Position numbers and translations under genes: made by a program. Below the pieces are notes generated by a model, which was given only the letters and a program-made list of their open reading frames with translations, had not been told where the DNA came from and did not search any database. Positions 3,975-48,749 of a stretch of DNA of 64,000 nucleotides are shown in pieces; positions within the stretch are counted from its first letter, which is position 1, and each line of letters starts with the position of its first letter. The stretch spans positions 186,001-250,000 of the forward strand of contig NZ_BMKK01000009.1 of assembly GCF_014644295.1 (NCBI RefSeq). Reading direction: 5' to 3'. This DNA comes from Emticicia aquatilis. GTDB lineage: Bacteria; Bacteroidota; Bacteroidia; Cytophagales; Spirosomataceae.

Positions 3975-5411
3975 ATGACAAAAATTACAGTAGCAAAAGG
4001 TGACGGAATCGGTCCAGAAATTATGGATGCCACGCTTGAAATTTTGATGGCAGCAGGAGCAAAAATCGAAGTCGAAGAAATTGAGGTAGGTGAAAAAGTG
4101 TATTTGGCTGGTAACACTGCGGGTATTGCCAAAGAATCTTGGGACGTAATCAGACGCAACAAGGTTTTCTTGAAAGCACCAATCACAACGCCTCAAGGTG
4201 GTGGTTATAAAAGTTTGAACGTAACGACCCGAAAATTTTTGGGGCTTTACTCAAACGTGCGTCCGTGCATGAGCTTGCATCCTTTTGTGGCTACCAAACA
4301 CCCGATTATGGATGTGGTTATTGTGCGTGAAAACGAAGAAGATTTATACGCAGGAATTGAACATCAACAAACCGATGAGGTGGTTCAGTGCTTGAAACTT
4401 ATCAGCCGCCCAGGTTGCGAAAAAATCGTGCGTTATGCTTTCGAGTACGCTAAACACTACGGCCGTAAGAAAGTTACGTGCTTCACGAAAGATAATATTA
4501 TGAAGCAAACTGATGGCTTGTTCCACCACGTTTTCGATGAAATTGCGAAAGAATACCCAGAAATTGAAAATGAGCATTGGATTATTGATATTGGTGCAGC
4601 AAAAATGGCTGACACGCCCGAAGCTTTTGATGTAATCGTGATGCCAAATCTTTATGGCGATGTACTCTCCGATGTGGCTGCTCAAATTGCTGGTTCGGTA
4701 GGTTTGGCTGGTTCGGCCAACATCGGTGAAGAATGTGCCATGTTTGAGGCAATCCACGGTTCAGCTCCTCGTAGAGCAGGACAAAATTTGGCCAATCCGT
4801 CGGGACTTTTGCAAGGAGCTATTATGATGCTTAACCACATCGGACAAACCAAAGTTGCTGAAAAAGTACAAAACGCTTGGCTAAAAACTATCGAAGATGG
4901 TATCCATACTTACGATGTTTTTAAAGAAGGAGTAAGTAAAGAAAAAGTTGGTACGAAAGAGTTTGCCCAAGCAGTAATTGCCAATCTTGGACAAGAACCA
5001 AAGCTTTTAAAATCAGTAAGTTATGCCGAAAACGCTACGCTTAACCTACCAAAATATGAGCGAAAAGCCCCAGCCAAAAAAGAGTTGGTCGGTGTTGATT
5101 TATTCGTTCACTGGACAGGTAAAAGTCCAGATGAGTTGGCTGCTATCGTACAAACACTCGACAGCAACGAAGTGAAACTTTCGATGATAACCAACCGTGG
5201 AATCAAAGTTTGGCCAGAAGGTTTTGAAGAAACTTTCTGCACTGACCACTGGCGTTGTAGATTCAAGCCTACCGAAGGTAATCAGATGAGCAAAGAAGCC
5301 ATTATTCAGCTGCTCAATGGTGCTATCGAAAAAGGTATTGATACCGTAAAAACCGAAAATCTTTATACGTTCGATGGTAAAATGGGCTTCTCGTTGGGTC
5401 AAGGACAATAA
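3975..5411 (+). CDS. icd: Isocitrate dehydrogenase, long (Thermus-like) type
   Basis: The 478-residue protein begins with the isocitrate/isopropylmalate dehydrogenase signature KGDGIGPEIM. It keeps the substrate-binding arginines in the S-x-N-VRPCMSL region, the metal-binding Asp-rich stretch in MPNLYGDVLSDVAAQIAGS and the nucleotide-binding HGSAPR motif. About 140 residues after the catalytic core form the C-terminal extension known from the Thermus thermophilus enzyme. It oxidatively decarboxylates isocitrate to 2-oxoglutarate in the TCA cycle. NADP use is usual for this group but is not proven from the residues I can read. It is divergent from the LysR gene. Confidence 0.93.
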   Translation: MTKITVAKGDGIGPEIMDATLEILMAAGAKIEVEEIEVGEKVYLAGNTAGIAKESWDVIRRNKVFLKAPITTPQGGGYKSLNVTTRKFLGLYSNVRPCMSLHPFVATKHPIMDVVIVRENEEDLYAGIEHQQTDEVVQCLKLISRPGCEKIVRYAFEYAKHYGRKKVTCFTKDNIMKQTDGLFHHVFDEIAKEYPEIENEHWIIDIGAAKMADTPEAFDVIVMPNLYGDVLSDVAAQIAGSVGLAGSANIGEECAMFEAIHGSAPRRAGQNLANPSGLLQGAIMMLNHIGQTKVAEKVQNAWLKTIEDGIHTYDVFKEGVSKEKVGTKEFAQAVIANLGQEPKLLKSVSYAENATLNLPKYERKAPAKKELVGVDLFVHWTGKSPDELAAIVQTLDSNEVKLSMITNRGIKVWPEGFEETFCTDHWRCRFKPTEGNQMSKEAIIQLLNGAIEKGIDTVKTENLYTFDGKMGFSLGQGQ

Positions 5412-5416
5412 TTTAT

Positions 5417-5444
5417 CAGTCAATAGTTGGCAGTCAACAGTCAT
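5417..5444. repeat. Heptad repeat, four clean 7-bp units
   Basis: Just after the icd stop there are four adjacent heptads: CAGTCAA, TAGTTGG, CAGTCAA and CAGTCAT (5417-5444). Read on the other strand they are rotations of GTTGACT, the same unit seen inside the reading frame at 42319. Confidence 0.75.
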
Positions 5445-5524
5445 CTAAAACACTCATTTTCAAACAAATATGGGTTTTAAAACTGTCGACTAAATACTTA
5501 CAACCAATTAAACCTACATTTTAG

Positions 5525-7854: not shown

Positions 7855-7898
7855 GTCTTTTGTGTTGGTGAATTTGACGGTTGATTGAAAGAAAAACT

Positions 7899-7933
7899 AT
7901 GGACTGCCGACCGTCGTCCGTTGATTATTAATT
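7899..7933. repeat. Heptad repeat directly abutting a start codon
   Basis: Five consecutive heptads (ATGGACT, GCCGACC, GTCGTCC, GTTGATT, ATTAATT) fill 7899-7933 and end exactly before the ATG at 7934. They form the leader of the zinc-ribbon gene. A less regular TTGACGG TTGATTG pair precedes them at about 7873-7887. Confidence 0.65.
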
Positions 7934-41420: not shown

Positions 41421-42695
41421 CTATTTTTGTTCTATGTTTTCATCGCCTTCTTTATAATCAAGGTAATATAAAACTAAATTAAACATTTCATCTTTTGTTC
41501 CCCAACCGTAGCCAATATCTCGTGGTGGGTTATAAGGATTTTCGGGATTTTCGGCAGTATTATCGTACGTACCTTCAACTATAAATGTTGAGCCTGCGGG
41601 AATTTTCAGTAACTTCTTAAACTGATAAGTCATTTGCCAATTAAAGTCCCAACTATCAATCTTTACTAAGTTTACCACCTCTCCGTCGGGCGTAATCACA
41701 AATGCTCGGAATGTTTTGCCTATTAAGTGCATGTGCGGAAGCACCGAAATCAACGACATTGATTTATCAATCTTTTTCGAGATAAAGAAAGTGGCTTTTT
41801 GTCCTGCTTTTATCAAAAATGGTTTGTTTGAAATATCATTTTCACGTAATGTAAAATTCCTTACCTCACGTTCGATTTTATCTTTAGCAAAATACAGTTG
41901 AATCTCCGATTGGTCGGTGTCAGGTACAGGCGAAGGTGCATAGTGCATATTCAGCAGAAAATCGGCGTTTGCATTCAGTTTTACCCCAGTACCTTTCGGG
42001 AAATTGATTTTGTCATTTCCTGGTACCCATCCATACAGAAACTCTTCTTTTAAAGCGGTCTTTTGAAACTCATAAACTTTTGGGTCAGTTTCTGATAAAC
42101 CATCTATGCCTCTGATATTGTTGGTTGTATCAACCATCAATCGGCTATGATGAACCACTTTTTTATTTCCTGCCGTAAATCCGATAGCTGTAATATATTC
42201 GTCTCTCGGTGTTTTACTTGGCAAACTAAAAAATCGAAAATCTTCTAAATTCTCTCCCGAAATTGGGTATGGTTTATTCATTTTCAAAACCAAATCAGGT
42301 TTTACTAACTCTGATTCTATTGACTGTTGTCTATTATCTGTTGACTTCAAAATACCCTCTTTCATTCCACCTTCAATCCAAAGTTTTATTTTGGTTATTT
42401 CGCCTACTGTCAGTCCTCGCTCGTTTAGGTAAGCTTGAAATTTACGGTCTGCGGGAAACGGTGGCATATAACGAGTTTCGGTTACCTTACCAATAAATTT
42501 GGCTCGTTTCACAACGTCTTCGTAGGTTATCAAATTAAATGGCCCAGATTTGTTGGGCTGGTGGCAAGGTGTGCAATTTTTGTGGATAATGGGAGCTATA
42601 TGCTCATGAAAGTTAACTTCTATCGCTTTTTGGGCATCAACAAGCACGGAATATAATATTCCTACCACAAAAAAAGTATATCGAAAATTTCTCAT
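41421..42695 (-). CDS. Cytochrome c / copper type II monooxygenase-like fusion
   Basis: The 424-residue protein has a signal peptide to about residue 22. A haem-c site C41-T-P-C44-H45 with Met77 (RYMPPF) is the likely axial ligand set. From about 130 it follows the peptidylglycine-monooxygenase-type two-copper fold: CuH ligands His182, His183 (KKVVHHSRL) and His251 (NMHYAPSP), CuM ligands His321, His323 (LPHMHLIG) and Met404 (KDEMFNL). Residues 118-125 (STDNRQQS) are encoded by a heptad repeat and look like a recent insert between the two domains. It probably hydroxylates an unknown substrate outside the cell membrane with electrons fed through the haem. Confidence 0.85.
   Translation of the reverse strand: MRNFRYTFFVVGILYSVLVDAQKAIEVNFHEHIAPIIHKNCTPCHQPNKSGPFNLITYEDVVKRAKFIGKVTETRYMPPFPADRKFQAYLNERGLTVGEITKIKLWIEGGMKEGILKSTDNRQQSIESELVKPDLVLKMNKPYPISGENLEDFRFFSLPSKTPRDEYITAIGFTAGNKKVVHHSRLMVDTTNNIRGIDGLSETDPKVYEFQKTALKEEFLYGWVPGNDKINFPKGTGVKLNANADFLLNMHYAPSPVPDTDQSEIQLYFAKDKIEREVRNFTLRENDISNKPFLIKAGQKATFFISKKIDKSMSLISVLPHMHLIGKTFRAFVITPDGEVVNLVKIDSWDFNWQMTYQFKKLLKIPAGSTFIVEGTYDNTAENPENPYNPPRDIGYGWGTKDEMFNLVLYYLDYKEGDENIEQK
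42319..42346. repeat. In-frame heptad repeat inside a gene
   Basis: Four perfect-period heptads, ATTGACT, GTTGTCT, ATTATCT and GTTGACT (42319-42346), lie inside the copper monooxygenase gene. Twenty-eight bases are not a multiple of 3, yet the gene frame stays open, so flanking bases must compensate. The encoded stretch (minus strand) is KSTDNRQQSIES-like, at the haem/copper domain junction. Confidence 0.85.
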
Positions 42696-43587: not shown

Positions 43588-45267
43588 TTAGAATTCCCAT
43601 TTGAGTTTAACTTTATCCCAGAATACAGGGTCTCTGTCAAAGATAACTTCAGTTAATTTTGGAGTTGCATTTGAGTTCAAAGTACCTTCTTGTGAAGGAT
43701 AAGGTAAACGCAATGCATACTGTCTTGGTGGCTTAATAATTGGATTATTAACTTGTGAAGGGAAACCAGTACGACGCATTGAGTTCCAGATTTCCATACC
43801 TTGTCCCCAAGATGAGAACCATAACTGTTTCGCTACAACGTTTAATTTTGCAGTATTTGACGGAGCTGCATCATACAATTTCAATTGAGCCGCTACATAA
43901 TCATTGATATAAGCTGCAGTAGGAGCAACAGCATTAGCTGCATCAACTTTAGCACCGAGAGCAACTACACGAGCGATATGCTCTCTAATAGCAGCTTCAA
44001 AAATAGCTTTAGCATCACCAGCAGCACCACCATCTAAGATAGCTTCGATTTGATAATACTTCATGTTATTGCTTGTAAGCAATGGCCAAATACCATTACC
44101 TGAACCTCTACCACCTGTCAATGCTCTTGGAGTCACGTTACGGCCACCAAAAAGACCACCAGCAGGATAACAACCAGGAGCTGTACGCAACGCACCATCT
44201 TGTGGCACACCCGTGTTATCTCCTCTGTCACGACCAAAGAAACCCGCAATGTATTTCAAATCAGCAGCACTTGGAGCAGAACCGAATACAGTAGCCCATT
44301 TTGCTAAGAAAGATGGTTTACGCACCAAGTAAGTACCACCGTAAGGAATTGTACCTCTATCAGTTGGGTTACTTGGGTCAAGAATCGTTTCTGTCTGACG
44401 GTAGAAATAATAATCCAAACGAGGGTCTTTGTTGAAAATCATCTCTTCCATTAATTGGTGTGCTGGATAAGCAAAACCGTTATCAGCTAAATAAGCTGAT
44501 TGGAACCAAGGATGACGACCTTCTGGAGAAGACGCAGTACTGAAGTTATAAGTAAAGTCGTCAGCAGGAGCCGTAATATAACCACCAGCAGCAATGGCAG
44601 CAGCTAATTCAGCATTACCGTTTGTACGTCCTTTTCTTGCGTTCAATAATAATTTAATCTTAACCGATTTTGCAAATCTAATCCATTTTGCAGCCGAACC
44701 ACCGTACATAAAGTCAGCAGATGCCGCTAATGGGTCAGCAGTAGTTTTAGAAAGATTAGCTACTGCCTCATCACATAATTTAATCAAAGCCTCATAAATA
44801 TCTGAGTCTTTATCAAATTTAGGAGTTGTAATTGCATTCTCTGCATTTCCTTTCCATGCTTCTGAATAAGGGCAGTCGCCGAAAGTATCAACAAAATTAC
44901 CCATTGCAAAAGCTTTCATCGCTTGTGCTACACCCAAATAGTGTGGGCTATTTGCACTTGCATTGATGATAGCCTCAACGTTATTCATATTGCGGTAAAA
45001 GCTATTCCAAGTACCGTTATATGATTGGTTGTTTAGGTCAAAATTATCAGAACTACTCAATAATCCTGCAAAACCCATAGCATTATCATTCACAGCAGTA
45101 ATAGCATTTACTACTGCACTTTCAGCAGTTGGTAATAAAAGCTTTGCCGATGCTACTGTTGGACTGTTCGGGTCTTTATTGATGTCCAAATCTGTTAAAT
45201 CACAAGCACTCAACAAACTGATTAAGCCTGTAGTAAGTGCTATCTTCGATATGTATTTTAATTTCAT
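43588..45267 (-). CDS. SusD/RagB-type nutrient-binding lipoprotein (SusD-like_2)
   Basis: The 559-residue lipoprotein (signal ending ISLLSAC, Cys22) begins its mature part DLTDLDINKDPNSPTVA, typical of the PF12771-type SusD-like group, with TPR-like helices and the ending WDKVKLKWEF. It sits on the cell surface as a lid over the SusC pore and binds the transported nutrient. In the operon it follows susC (159-bp gap with heptad repeat) and precedes the extra lipoprotein. This SusD subgroup is often associated with non-glycan or unknown substrates; no polysaccharide-degrading enzymes flank it. Confidence 0.95.
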   Translation of the reverse strand: MKLKYISKIALTTGLISLLSACDLTDLDINKDPNSPTVASAKLLLPTAESAVVNAITAVNDNAMGFAGLLSSSDNFDLNNQSYNGTWNSFYRNMNNVEAIINASANSPHYLGVAQAMKAFAMGNFVDTFGDCPYSEAWKGNAENAITTPKFDKDSDIYEALIKLCDEAVANLSKTTADPLAASADFMYGGSAAKWIRFAKSVKIKLLLNARKGRTNGNAELAAAIAAGGYITAPADDFTYNFSTASSPEGRHPWFQSAYLADNGFAYPAHQLMEEMIFNKDPRLDYYFYRQTETILDPSNPTDRGTIPYGGTYLVRKPSFLAKWATVFGSAPSAADLKYIAGFFGRDRGDNTGVPQDGALRTAPGCYPAGGLFGGRNVTPRALTGGRGSGNGIWPLLTSNNMKYYQIEAILDGGAAGDAKAIFEAAIREHIARVVALGAKVDAANAVAPTAAYINDYVAAQLKLYDAAPSNTAKLNVVAKQLWFSSWGQGMEIWNSMRRTGFPSQVNNPIIKPPRQYALRLPYPSQEGTLNSNATPKLTEVIFDRDPVFWDKVKLKWEF

Positions 45268-45285
45268 TTCTATTTACGATTTTTG

Positions 45286-45328
45286 GTTAGCTTATTAGCT
45301 GTTAGTTGTTAGCAATTAGCTATTAGTC
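45286..45328. repeat. Heptad repeat tract, clearest intergenic copy
   Basis: Units GTTAGCT, (T), ATTAGCT, GTTAGTT, GTTAGCA, ATTAGCT, ATTAGTC run from 45286 to 45328 between susC and susD, with one extra T after the first unit. All match RTTAGYW. It lies in the transcribed region of the operon. Confidence 0.9.
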
Positions 45329-45426
45329 ATAAAAACAATTATCTCTTCAAGCCTAACTATATTATTAAATTTGGCTTATATCATTTCTAACTAAACGCTT
45401 TACTTATATCTAAAAGCCCAAATAAA

Positions 45427-48400
45427 TTAGAACGATACTGATAAGTTAGCACCAAAACGACGAGTTGATGGAGCTGCACCTAAGTCGAAACCTTGGATGT
45501 TTGAATCAGCAAAGTTTGACAATACTTCTGGGTCGAAGTTCAAGCCTGTCAACATGTTTGGAGATTTAAACCACAAGTTTCTTCCTGATAACGAAACTCT
45601 CAAGCCACCAATAAATGGTAATGTTTTCTTCAAGAAAGCTTTAGGAACGTTGTATCCTAATGAAACTTCACGCAAACGAATGGTTGTAATATCATAGATG
45701 TTAGTTTCGTCAGCACCATAAGCACCGTATCCGTTTGAGAAGTGCGATTGGAACGCAGTCATTGGAATTGTGTTCTTAATAGTTTTACCTGACTCATCCA
45801 ACAATGGTTTGTATGTTTGAGGGTCACCTAAGATACCTGGAATTACACGCATACCTTCACGGTCTTCAGAGAATTTCAATTGACCTCTCAATAATAATGA
45901 AGCAGCAGTTGCTGAGAACATACTTCCACCAGCACGGTAATCCATCAATACTGACAAGTTAAATCCTTTGAAGCTAAATGTGTTTGTCCAACCAACAGTA
46001 AATTTAGGAGCAGGGTTTGCTAAGATTTGTGACGTTGGCTCTTGTAATGGTAAACCAGTAGTTGGGCTAATCAATACATTACCTTGGTCGTCACGAGCAT
46101 TACGTGAACCGTAAATCATACCATAAGGGAAACCATTGCGGTGCATTGTACCAGTAGAAGAAAGACCTGTACCACCTAAGAATAACTCACCTGATGGACC
46201 TGCATCAACAACTTCTGAACGAAGACGAGTGTAAGCAATGAAAGAGTTCCAAGTGAAGCCATTGTTTAATTTAACAGGTACTAAGTTCAAGCCTAATTCC
46301 CAACCTCTGTTGATGATTTTACCTGCGTTAGTTGCTTTGAAGTCAAAACCTGATGATGTTGGGATACGAGCCGTTACAATCAAGTCAGTTGAAACACGAT
46401 TGAAGTAAGCAAGGTCAACACCAATTCTGTTTTTGAAGAATTGTAATTCTGTACCAATTTCATACTCAGTAGTAAACTCTGGTTTCAAGTTAGCGTTGCT
46501 AAGCGTAGATGGTAGTCTCGTAGCAGAAATCGGAGCAGCATTGTAGTATTGTACTGCAAAGTTATATGAAGTAAATACTTGATATGGGTCTGCATCTTTA
46601 CCAACTTTCGCAACGTTTGCACGGATTTTACCAAAGCTCAAAATATTTGTTGGTAATTTAAACGCTTCAGTGAAGATGAATGAACCACTTACTGATGGGT
46701 AGAAATAGCTATTATTAGCAGCTGGTAATGTAGAAGAGTGGTCATTACGGATAGTTGCTGTCAAGAAAGCATAGTTGTTATACGATGCACCGTATTCAGC
46801 AAAGAAACCATAAAGACGACGTTTGCTTTGGAATTCTGAAGCAAATTGAGTGTTTGTACCACCCAAAATCAACAAGTTAGGGTCAATGATTGTTTGTCCT
46901 AATAAGCTACTGATATTTCTGTAACGTTGGTTAGCATTGAAACCAGCTAATAAACGCATGTTGATTTTCTCACTGATATCTTTGTTGGCTGATGCTAAGA
47001 AAGTGAAATCTAATTCTGTATTAGTAATGTCACGACGAGTAACCTGACCTAATGGAACTGAGTTACCACCTGGACGATAAACCTCTCTACGAGTTTCGTC
47101 ATACGTATTGATACCACCTTTAGCTGTTAAGTTCAACCAAGGAGCTACATCATAAGTCAAAGCCATGTTACCAAATACACGATTTACCTTACTTGTATAA
47201 GTATTGTATTTAGCTGTCCAAAGTGGGTTGTCTAATGCACGATAGAATACGTTTGCACCAGTTACTGGGTTTTCGAATGGAAGACCATTCAAATCGAAGT
47301 TACGTGGTAAGTAGAACAAACGAGAGTAGATTGAACCAGAAGCAGCCAAACCACCGTAGTCAGCAAAATAACCAGCACCCGATTGTGGTGAGTTTTGGTT
47401 GGTGCTTACGTAGTTAACGTTACCGCTCAAATTTAATTTATTAGCCAAAGTAGCGTTTCCACCGAAGTTCAAAGTAGTACGGTCAGCACCTGAGTTTGGA
47501 ATGATACCTTGGTTAGTCATACGTGAAGCACCTGCACTGATAGTAGTTTTATCGCCAGTTGAGCTGATGTTAAAGCTATTTTCGATTACATGACCACGTT
47601 TGAAGAATCCACCAATAATATCATAAGGCTTCAATTCATAAGGAACAGCATTTCCGTTTGCATCTAATAATTCAGGGAAAGCTGATTTATAACGAGCCGC
47701 ACCATAAGCAACACCAACAATTGGGTTTGGTACAAATCCAGCTGCATAATTACCATCAATAATTTTTGAATAACGCTCAAAACCTAAAGCTTGGTTAACA
47801 CGGTCAACCTCAGCAGGGAATACAGAACCCCAGTTACCGATGAATCCACCATTGTAAGTTTGGTTAGAACCTTGAGTGTATGTATTTTGGTAATCTGGAA
47901 CGGTAGAGATTTTTTCAGTAGAATATGAAGAGTTATAAGTTACTTCTAAACCTTTCTTAGCATTTTTGCTACCAGCTTTAGTCGTGATTACAACCACACC
48001 GTTAGCAGCACGTGAACCATAAAGAGCAGATGCCGCAGCACCTTTCAAGATAGTCATTGACTCTACGTTGTTAGGGTCAATATCATAAGCACGGTTCGAA
48101 GTTACTGTATTTTGGTTAAAACCATCAGTAGCATTTACCGAGTTATCGAAAGGAATACCATCCACAACGAATAATGGTTGGTTATTTCCAGTAAATGAGT
48201 TTGCACCACGAATCGTGATACGAGTTGCTTGACCTGGAGCACCACCACCCGAAATAATGTTTACACCTGGTACTTTACCATTCAAGGCACGCAAAGCATC
48301 TGGCTCCGAACGTTGTTGAAGAGACTCTGCGTTTACGTTAGATACCGCATAAGCCAAAGCTTTTTTCTCACGTTGGATACCGATAGCCGTTACAACAACT

Positions 48401-48708
48401 TCAGATAATTGTTTTGTGTCAGCACCTAACGAGATGTTTACAACTGACTGGCTTCCAAGTTTTACTTCTTGGGTGTTCATACCCACAAAACTGAACACTA
48501 ATGTACTTCCTGAGGCAGCTTCAATAGAGTAATTACCCTCTATGTCAGTCTGTGACCCTTTTGAAGTACCTTTTACTTGTACCGTTACACCCGGCAATCC
48601 TGAGCCATCATCCGATGACGTTACTTTACCAGTTATCTTCTTGCCTTGTGCCATTACAGCAAAAGACATGATGACACCCAGCAAACTAAGAAGTAGATTC
48701 TTCTTCAT
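45427..48708 (-). CDS. SusC/RagA-type TonB-linked outer-membrane transporter (1)
   Basis: The protein is 1093 residues from the ATG at 48708 (another ATG two codons up at 48714; the second matches the start of the paralogue). Signal peptide to about 21, then a carboxypeptidase-regulatory domain at 24-105 (KITGKVTSSDDGSGLPGVTV), a plug domain about 115-240 (PDALRALNGKVPGVNI, FVVDGIPF, AASALYGSRAANGVVVITTK) and a C-terminal beta-barrel ending TRRFGANLSVSF. It moves a large nutrient across the outer membrane using TonB energy. The first 60 residues are nearly identical to the second SusC (51056). Promoter-like TATTTTTG lies 42 bp upstream. Confidence 0.97.
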   Translation of the reverse strand: MKKNLLLSLLGVIMSFAVMAQGKKITGKVTSSDDGSGLPGVTVQVKGTSKGSQTDIEGNYSIEAASGSTLVFSFVGMNTQEVKLGSQSVVNISLGADTKQLSEVVVTAIGIQREKKALAYAVSNVNAESLQQRSEPDALRALNGKVPGVNIISGGGAPGQATRITIRGANSFTGNNQPLFVVDGIPFDNSVNATDGFNQNTVTSNRAYDIDPNNVESMTILKGAAASALYGSRAANGVVVITTKAGSKNAKKGLEVTYNSSYSTEKISTVPDYQNTYTQGSNQTYNGGFIGNWGSVFPAEVDRVNQALGFERYSKIIDGNYAAGFVPNPIVGVAYGAARYKSAFPELLDANGNAVPYELKPYDIIGGFFKRGHVIENSFNISSTGDKTTISAGASRMTNQGIIPNSGADRTTLNFGGNATLANKLNLSGNVNYVSTNQNSPQSGAGYFADYGGLAASGSIYSRLFYLPRNFDLNGLPFENPVTGANVFYRALDNPLWTAKYNTYTSKVNRVFGNMALTYDVAPWLNLTAKGGINTYDETRREVYRPGGNSVPLGQVTRRDITNTELDFTFLASANKDISEKINMRLLAGFNANQRYRNISSLLGQTIIDPNLLILGGTNTQFASEFQSKRRLYGFFAEYGASYNNYAFLTATIRNDHSSTLPAANNSYFYPSVSGSFIFTEAFKLPTNILSFGKIRANVAKVGKDADPYQVFTSYNFAVQYYNAAPISATRLPSTLSNANLKPEFTTEYEIGTELQFFKNRIGVDLAYFNRVSTDLIVTARIPTSSGFDFKATNAGKIINRGWELGLNLVPVKLNNGFTWNSFIAYTRLRSEVVDAGPSGELFLGGTGLSSTGTMHRNGFPYGMIYGSRNARDDQGNVLISPTTGLPLQEPTSQILANPAPKFTVGWTNTFSFKGFNLSVLMDYRAGGSMFSATAASLLLRGQLKFSEDREGMRVIPGILGDPQTYKPLLDESGKTIKNTIPMTAFQSHFSNGYGAYGADETNIYDITTIRLREVSLGYNVPKAFLKKTLPFIGGLRVSLSGRNLWFKSPNMLTGLNFDPEVLSNFADSNIQGFDLGAAPSTRRFGANLSVSF

Positions 48709-48749
48709 GTACATTTTAGTTTAGGTTATTAAATGATAATTAACTGTTA

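Follow-up and report, generated by a model that had tools for sequence, protein, structure and literature searches.

The gap between a SusD-like gene and a gene for a SusC-like TonB-dependent receptor in Emticicia aquatilis carries a run of about six degenerate 7-bp units (positions 45286–45328), and the question raised by this locus is whether such a tract is a free-standing microsatellite or a part of something larger. The window, i.e., the whole stretch of 64,000 nucleotides that was analysed, lies on contig C9 of the 6.75-Mb assembly of this bacterium, designated G000; other G numbers denote relatives, and L numbers denote loci. Our main reading, to which we assign a probability of about 70%, is that a small inverted-repeat element underlies the heptad tracts, which form its terminal arms, and that the gene-bearing version of this element encodes a four-helix-bundle protein of the PF05635 family (23S rRNA-intervening-sequence protein, S23). 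The window tract is probably one arm of a gene-less S23 element and probably not a free-standing microsatellite.

The window tract and its gap

Direct reading of the sequence gave the units GTTAGCT(T), ATTAGCT, GTTAGTT, GTTAGCA, ATTAGCT and ATTAG, a tract of TTRGCNN words with 16 of 21 matches at a lag of 7 bp. The tract described in the original prediction is present, but its period is not strict, as the first step is 8 bp. It belongs to a 159-bp intergenic gap (45268–45426) and starts 18 bp upstream of the start of the susD-like gene (43588–45267, minus strand; PF12771, E = 2.1e-47), the downstream neighbour, the product of which is 84–96% identical across four other Emticicia loci; the upstream neighbour is the susC-like gene (45427–48714, minus strand; PF07715, PF00593 and PF13715). 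Its site between these two genes lies outside the 23S rRNA genes in which intervening sequences (IVS) with S23 are found. The tract would represent the 5′ arm, on the plus strand, of a probable gene-less element of the S23 type: the window copy contains no S23 gene, and no significant mirrored partner of the tract was found in G000, so arms on both sides are not seen here. No Rfam match at the gathering score was obtained for the window and seven loci.

G000 and G004 have identical tracts, that of G006 shows two changes, and G007 has no such tract. At the same site in G005, G009, and G010, other arms of the TTAGC/TTAGG type appear mirrored by eye, with mirrored scores of 16, 14, and 12, respectively, all under the 95th percentile of the null distribution (17); a score of 24 was reached when the tract-bearing half of the G000 gap was paired with the right half of its G009 counterpart. 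As to length differences among close relatives, proposed earlier as a comparison, tract content varies at the orthologous gap, and the number of units is the same in the three species that share the tract (G000, G004, and G006).

Similar heptads had also been listed at several other places in the window, where 10 to 14 of 21 positions matched at lag 7, as counted without a significance test. Two of these places are weakly periodic, namely a CAGTCAA-type arm at 5405–5445 (listed as 5417; 13/21 at lag 7 and 14/21 at lag 14, mirrored score 12, partner not significant) and a GACTGCC-type tract without a partner at 7880–7920 (listed as 7899; 14/21 at lag 7, mirrored score 6). Places 17587, 28179, and 30526 gave 10, 10, and 11 of 21 matches, the last one fitting a period of 15 better (17 matches), and place 42319, with 14/21, lies not in a gap but inside the open reading frame 41421–42695. 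The inverted heptads reported at 133–250 form a mirrored pair of another word family (GGTTATTGGGAAATT / AATTCCC..AATAACC), with 14/21 matches at lag 7, a mirrored score of 20 against a null 95th percentile of 17, and a best period of 15.

Heptad tracts and mirrored pairs in gene gaps

Tracts were counted in 36 stretches of G000 (764 kb, with 442 gap segments amounting to 83 kb), made up of the window and 35 others selected irrespective of hits; five of the first 20 stretches had been picked for hits and were excluded from this unbiased set. The gaps contained 21 period-7 tracts, one of them contributed by the window, which was not blindly chosen. Twenty dinucleotide shuffles gave 0.4 tracts on average and never more than 1, and the predicted excess over shuffled gap sequence is confirmed. 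Periods 5, 6, and 9–13 yielded 0–1 tracts each in the same gaps, and periods 4, 8, 14, 16, and 21 yielded 5, 9, 8, 5, and 4 tracts, respectively, also above their own shuffles. A genome-wide search of G000 with the pattern TTRGC... returned 25 matches, overlapping ones being counted separately, versus one for the reversed control. The global autocorrelation of gap sequence is a cruder measure and a poor detector, since lags 7 (z = 4.1) and 21 (z = 5.1) are accompanied by prominent lags 3 (z = 9.0), 4 (z = 6.0), 11, and 12. At a looser threshold, 40 tracts were found in 33 of 447 gaps of at least 30 bp. Scaled to the whole genome, this would correspond to about 290 tract-bearing gaps versus the three PF05635 genes found in G000, and gene-less copies probably outnumber gene-bearing ones.

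The original prediction did not notice that the tracts often constitute inward-facing mirrored pairs. A mirrored partner within 150 bp, scoring above the 95th percentile of flanks from other loci, was identified for 17 of the 40 tracts (2 expected) and was lacking for 23. Close TTRGCNN pairs, drawn from the genome-wide pattern loci and the fetched stretches, face inward in ten cases out of ten, with spacers of 10–118 bp. The spacers of these G000 pairs seem unrelated to each other as judged by eye, and a mobile element with a conserved spacer was rejected on this basis. Mirrored arms also follow a strand rule, which is the same with and without a gene: G exceeds C in the 5′ arms of 33 of 36 gene-bearing loci and in seven of eight gene-less 5′ arms, and the mirror rule is obeyed by eight of nine gene-less 3′ arms. 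The median arm length is about five units in both forms (4.9 among S23 arms of at least 28 bp, 37 out of 64, and 5.2 among the 40 tracts), a value partly set by the detection floor of four units.

The suggestion that every tract arose by expansion of a seed of its own is not upheld, since the words largely recur between loci and species, the unit number of the window tract is unchanged across three species, and the arm word goes with the S23 lineage in gene-bearing loci. Words recurring at unlinked loci include TTRGCNN, GACTGTC, GAATTAA, GAGTTCT, AGACAAG, GATTTAC, GGTTATT, and a 4/8-bp GANT family. Members of the latter (e.g., GAATGATTGAGTGATA), located at L041:11360–11445 and at L146, behave like heptads, and the family brackets one of the S23 genes of G000.

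Plain microsatellites, in which polymerase slippage favours 7-nt units with neither an element nor a protein involved, would be the simplest explanation of the tracts. Among genomes rich in long repeats, most have heptads as the most frequent class, according to the passages of PMC4679880 covered here; perfect longer arrays are present in the relatives G037 and G050, copies whose interiors are nearly identical differ in the length and words of their arms, and the 23 tracts lacking a significant partner are in line with this explanation. However, slippage does not give inward mirrored pairs, the rule of the G-rich 5′ arm, recurrent words, or the association with S23 genes described below, and it is at odds with the constant unit number of the window tract in three species. 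We therefore consider slippage an improbable origin of the tracts, although it probably reshapes the arms after their birth.

S23 genes between heptad arms

The three PF05635 genes found in G000 are each bracketed by mirrored arms with a different word, of period 7 in two cases and of period 4/8 in the third, and the open reading frames of L144, L145, L146, and L147 scored above the Pfam cut-off for this family. PF05635 matches were present in 48 of 58 genomes, G000 included, and exceeded in number the loci sampled. The set consisted of the three G000 loci, 29 loci of relatives (one best match per genome), and 18 further chosen matches, from which three repeats, one locus with unread bases in a flank, and one with a 25-bp flank were removed, leaving 45 loci of Cytophagales, not all independent (L153/L154, L184/L185, and L145/L187 are close kin). 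Mirrored flanks, defined by a score above 15 (the 95th percentile of controls), were observed in 36 of these loci, nine falling short; both flanks were of period 7 in 21 loci and either flank in 28. The corresponding numbers for 193 control genes, taken from G000 alone and with flanks measured from ORF ends rather than from the ends of profile matches as for S23, were 0 for both flanks and 14 for either.

In the first 32 loci, from 30 genomes, both flanks were of period 7 in 13, either flank in 18, and mirroring was above the control 95th percentile in 24; compared with the flanks of other S23 loci, 20 of the 32 exceeded the 95th percentile. Period 7 was the best period in 24 of these 32 loci versus 26 of the 193 controls, and some S23 arms have a period of 8 or 9. 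Among the 36 mirrored loci, arm similarity tracks the similarity of S23 proteins (r = 0.26, reached by none of 2000 permutations), also for pairs under 60% identity (r = 0.14, p = 0.0125), which fits either cognate arms or simple common descent.

The association extends to plasmids. In 16 of the 24 plasmid records found with S23 genes (15 cyanobacterial and one gemmatimonad, with L201/L212 and L208/L210 being close kin), both flanks were of period 7 in eight, either flank in 14, and mirrored flanks were detected in nine, seven lacking them at the threshold used. For 82 control ORFs of four of these plasmids, the respective numbers were 0, 5, and 1, the sole mirrored control being annotated as a four-helix-bundle protein. 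At L199 and L209, both on cyanobacterial plasmids, the S23 gene is located between cas6 and cas4 inside a CRISPR operon, and at L202, also on a cyanobacterial plasmid, between cas10 and a cmr3-type gene inside such an operon. Heptanucleotide repeats of cyanobacteria are known under the name STRR; the period is shared with the tracts described here, whereas the host is different, Emticicia belonging to the Bacteroidota and not to the filamentous cyanobacteria. The likeness to these repeats, noted at the outset, gains substance from cyanobacterial S23 genes bearing the same kind of arms, and both this comparison and the existence of a heptad-tract family in gaps have stronger support than was known when they were proposed.

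A graded series from gene-bearing to gene-less copies was observed in the relative G037, where the word pattern, with up to two mismatches allowed, occurs 88 times if overlapping matches are counted separately. At L144, arms surround an intact ORF of 121 amino acids (1016–1381; PF05635, E = 3.7e-35). At L130, L131, L135, L136, and L143, both ends of the gene are preserved around a nested heptad hairpin that replaces its middle, and at L138, L139, and L140 only heptad arrays are present. The five gene-broken copies share 89–98% identity over alignments of 238–266 bp, while their outer arms differ in the number and order of heptads; the gene-broken form was therefore copied to several places, and the arms change faster than the interiors. 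At L131 (G037:C5), a near-perfect (TAGCTAA)n array adjoins the arm of the gene-broken element, as if the arm had recently expanded.

Differences in gene content, which may reflect either gain or loss, also occur at orthologous gaps within Emticicia. The L145 gap in G000 is 479 bp long and contains the arms TTATTGG...CCAATAA and an S23 gene, while G004 has a 109-bp hairpin of the same word without a gene, and G006 another inverted repeat. At the site of L147, G006 shares the arms of G000 and has a shortened copy, and in G004 the site is taken by a periodic hairpin of another word without a gene. The terminal inverted repeats, the missing gene, and the existence of a related gene-bearing form, as in the G037 series and the G000/G004 pair at L145, resemble the situation in MITEs; no recombinase was seen between the arms of the gene-bearing copies. 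A gene-less example is the gap at L045:9290, which is 115 bp long with a TTRGCNN pair in G000, 6–7 bp long in G006 and G007, and occupied by a different periodic tract in G005 and G009; no target-site duplication was visible by eye at this one near-empty site. Two further gaps, L041:18348–18416 and L041:8628–8702, have heptad arms in G000 versus G/C-rich inverted repeats of the CCCCC..GGGGG type in some of G004, G005, and G006. The segment L045:11403–11447 contains a stretch of about 33 bp that has numerous counterparts, with 85–100% identity and in both orientations, in G004 and G006.

Alternatively, S23 elements might exist as such and only become inserted into heptad hairpins that were already present and had another origin. 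Most heptad tracts of G000 are gene-less, and the G037 group with a heptad hairpin inside the remnant of an S23 gene indicates that hairpins and genes can recombine. Against this stand the position of the arms, usually close to the gene ends in the loci inspected, the dependence of the word on the S23 lineage, and the identity of the strand rule with and without a gene. Such secondary insertion is unlikely, and the reading of the tracts as arms of the S23 element itself is preferred.

Arrays near start codons could also serve as binding sites of a host regulator, as was proposed for TAACTGA repeats of Beggiatoaceae in the part of PMC4679880 covered here, and the window tract does start 18 bp from the susD-like gene. 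Nevertheless, the presence of many words per genome, in both orientations and in all types of gaps, together with turnover at orthologous gaps, makes this explanation very improbable.

Transcription terminators or mRNA hairpins maintained by selection are likewise a very improbable explanation. The tracts can form hairpins, sit in gaps, in some cases directly after stop codons, and are densest per kb in convergent gaps (0.65, compared with 0.45 in co-directional and 0.25 in divergent ones). However, counted per gap, the three types carry tracts about equally often (5/67, 22/288, and 6/92, respectively), presence varies at orthologous gaps, no Rfam match reached the gathering score in the window and seven loci, and compensatory changes between arms were not detected. 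The similarity of arms within an element (17.3) does not exceed that between elements (19.1), and no co-evolution across species was found (p = 0.39) in 11 orthologous tract-bearing gaps, which were chosen by hand, as were the species for most of them; only one locus (G010 at L041:1742) seemed compensatory. Arm co-evolution as a proof of an RNA hairpin was rejected, both tests being negative. Since the pairing of the arms is not tuned, it gives no support for selection on a hairpin and fits the reading of repeated, half-conserved words by a ring.

REPIN/BIME elements consist of inverted palindrome arms around a variable spacer, and their copies are moved in trans by RAYT. This layout is similar to that of the heptad pairs, and RAYT-type (Y1_Tnp) genes are present in five of five genomes tested, with ten matches in G000, but an origin of the heptad tracts from this system is contradicted for these five genomes by the flanks of the Y1_Tnp genes, which are palindromes rather than heptad arrays, and can practically be dismissed. 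Of 33 listed matches, 18 strong ones were examined; flanks were mirrored above 15 in eight of these, while both flanks were of period 7 in none and either flank in one. It follows that the period, and not mirroring alone, is specific to S23. Mirrored palindromes such as ACTCCGTTAGGAGT are frequent beside the RAYT-type genes of Emticicia and G037 (L219, L227, L232, and others) and constitute a separate REP-like system.

Putative mechanism and relation to known repeats

The proposed element would consist of a G-rich arm of about five degenerate heptads, followed by an S23 gene of about 120 codons or a short unrelated spacer, and then the mirrored arm, and would reside in gene gaps, often between co-directional genes. 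S23 is described as a toroidal homopentamer in the passages covered of PMC4990558, which cites the Xanthomonas campestris structure, and the L145 protein matches a solved X. campestris structure (2gsc, five chains; E = 5e-8). One could hypothesise that the pentameric ring binds the heptad array with about one heptad per subunit. A parallel is provided by TRAP, which reads spaced triplets. With the help of host enzymes, S23 might then mobilise gene-less copies in trans as well as its own element in cis. Once transcribed, the arms may pair and become substrates of RNase III, as happens in the rRNA IVS, so that operons could tolerate the insertions, and the arms would afterwards drift through slippage and point changes until only one is left. 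We are less sure of the binding and movement steps than of the element itself.

The PF05635 family is reported to be homologous to Avd of diversity-generating retroelements (PMC10053308, in the part covered). Matches to the reverse transcriptase profile PF00078 numbered two in G000, four in G037, and none in G004, G006, and G010, the latter three having five, five, and three PF05635 matches, respectively. Retro-transposition with an Avd-like role of S23 was rejected because PF00078 is absent in G004 (81% complete), G006, and G010 (94% complete) despite the presence of PF05635; judging from these genomes, the elements do not seem to require a reverse transcriptase in this genus.

The closest known counterpart is the 23S rRNA IVS with S23 of Coxiella and Leptospira. 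As described in passages of PMC4990558, the Coxiella IVS has GACAGAT heptamers, two or three depending on the strain, upstream of the S23 ORF, and is excised by RNase III in vitro; inverted terminal repeats, the protein family, and the position of the heptamers are shared with the elements considered here, and the IVS is called a selfish element there. The IVS, however, lies inside 23S rRNA genes, whereas the present elements occupy gaps between protein-coding genes, are multi-copy and mostly gene-less, and use many words.

The heptanucleotide repeats of cyanobacteria (Calothrix PCC 7601, cited in PMC4692102) are likewise 7-nt tandem arrays, and such arrays flank cyanobacterial S23 genes; the literature passages covered state no link of these repeats to a gene. 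In Xanthomonas, degenerate GGGAATC tracts, (GGGANTN)n with mostly four units, number 186 in X. campestris and 183 in X. axonopodis, with 70 and 75 convergent nearby pairs, respectively, and mobile elements were generally not found beside them, according to the part of PMC4692102 covered. They share degeneracy, G-richness, and convergent pairing with the tracts of Emticicia; a text search of that paper found no mention of S23, although X. campestris has an S23 protein (2gsc). TAACTGA heptads were reported in Beggiatoaceae, Cyanobacteria, and five Bacteroidetes in passages of PMC4679880, which supplies the Bacteroidota counterpart that the original prediction was not aware of. These repeats are also 7-nt tandems in gaps with a scattered distribution, and their author considered that a repeat-binding protein might be the mobile element, but they comprise one word, nearly all in direct orientation, and S23, four-helix bundle, and intervening sequence were not mentioned in a text search of the paper. 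Among the open-licence papers searched, as far as their passages were covered, none was found to tie intergenic heptad repeats to S23 genes.

More tentatively, and with the odds somewhat against so broad a claim, the heptanucleotide repeats of Bacteroidota, Cyanobacteria, Xanthomonas, and Beggiatoaceae might all be relics of a single class of mobile DNA that lacks its own recombinase. In it, the S23 pentameric ring would read about five heptads, one per subunit, and host enzymes would help it to move the gene-bearing element as well as gene-less copies, the rRNA IVS being a special case that landed in a 23S gene. The element may represent the IVS kind outside rRNA and unify several unexplained repeat families.

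Two old puzzles, the heptanucleotide repeats of bacteria and the function of the S23 protein of rRNA intervening sequences, come together at these loci. If the link holds, it would provide an origin for the repeats, a testable substrate for S23, and a further type of selfish DNA that is small and seems to be common, and S23 elements could explain part of the turnover of gene gaps in these bacteria.
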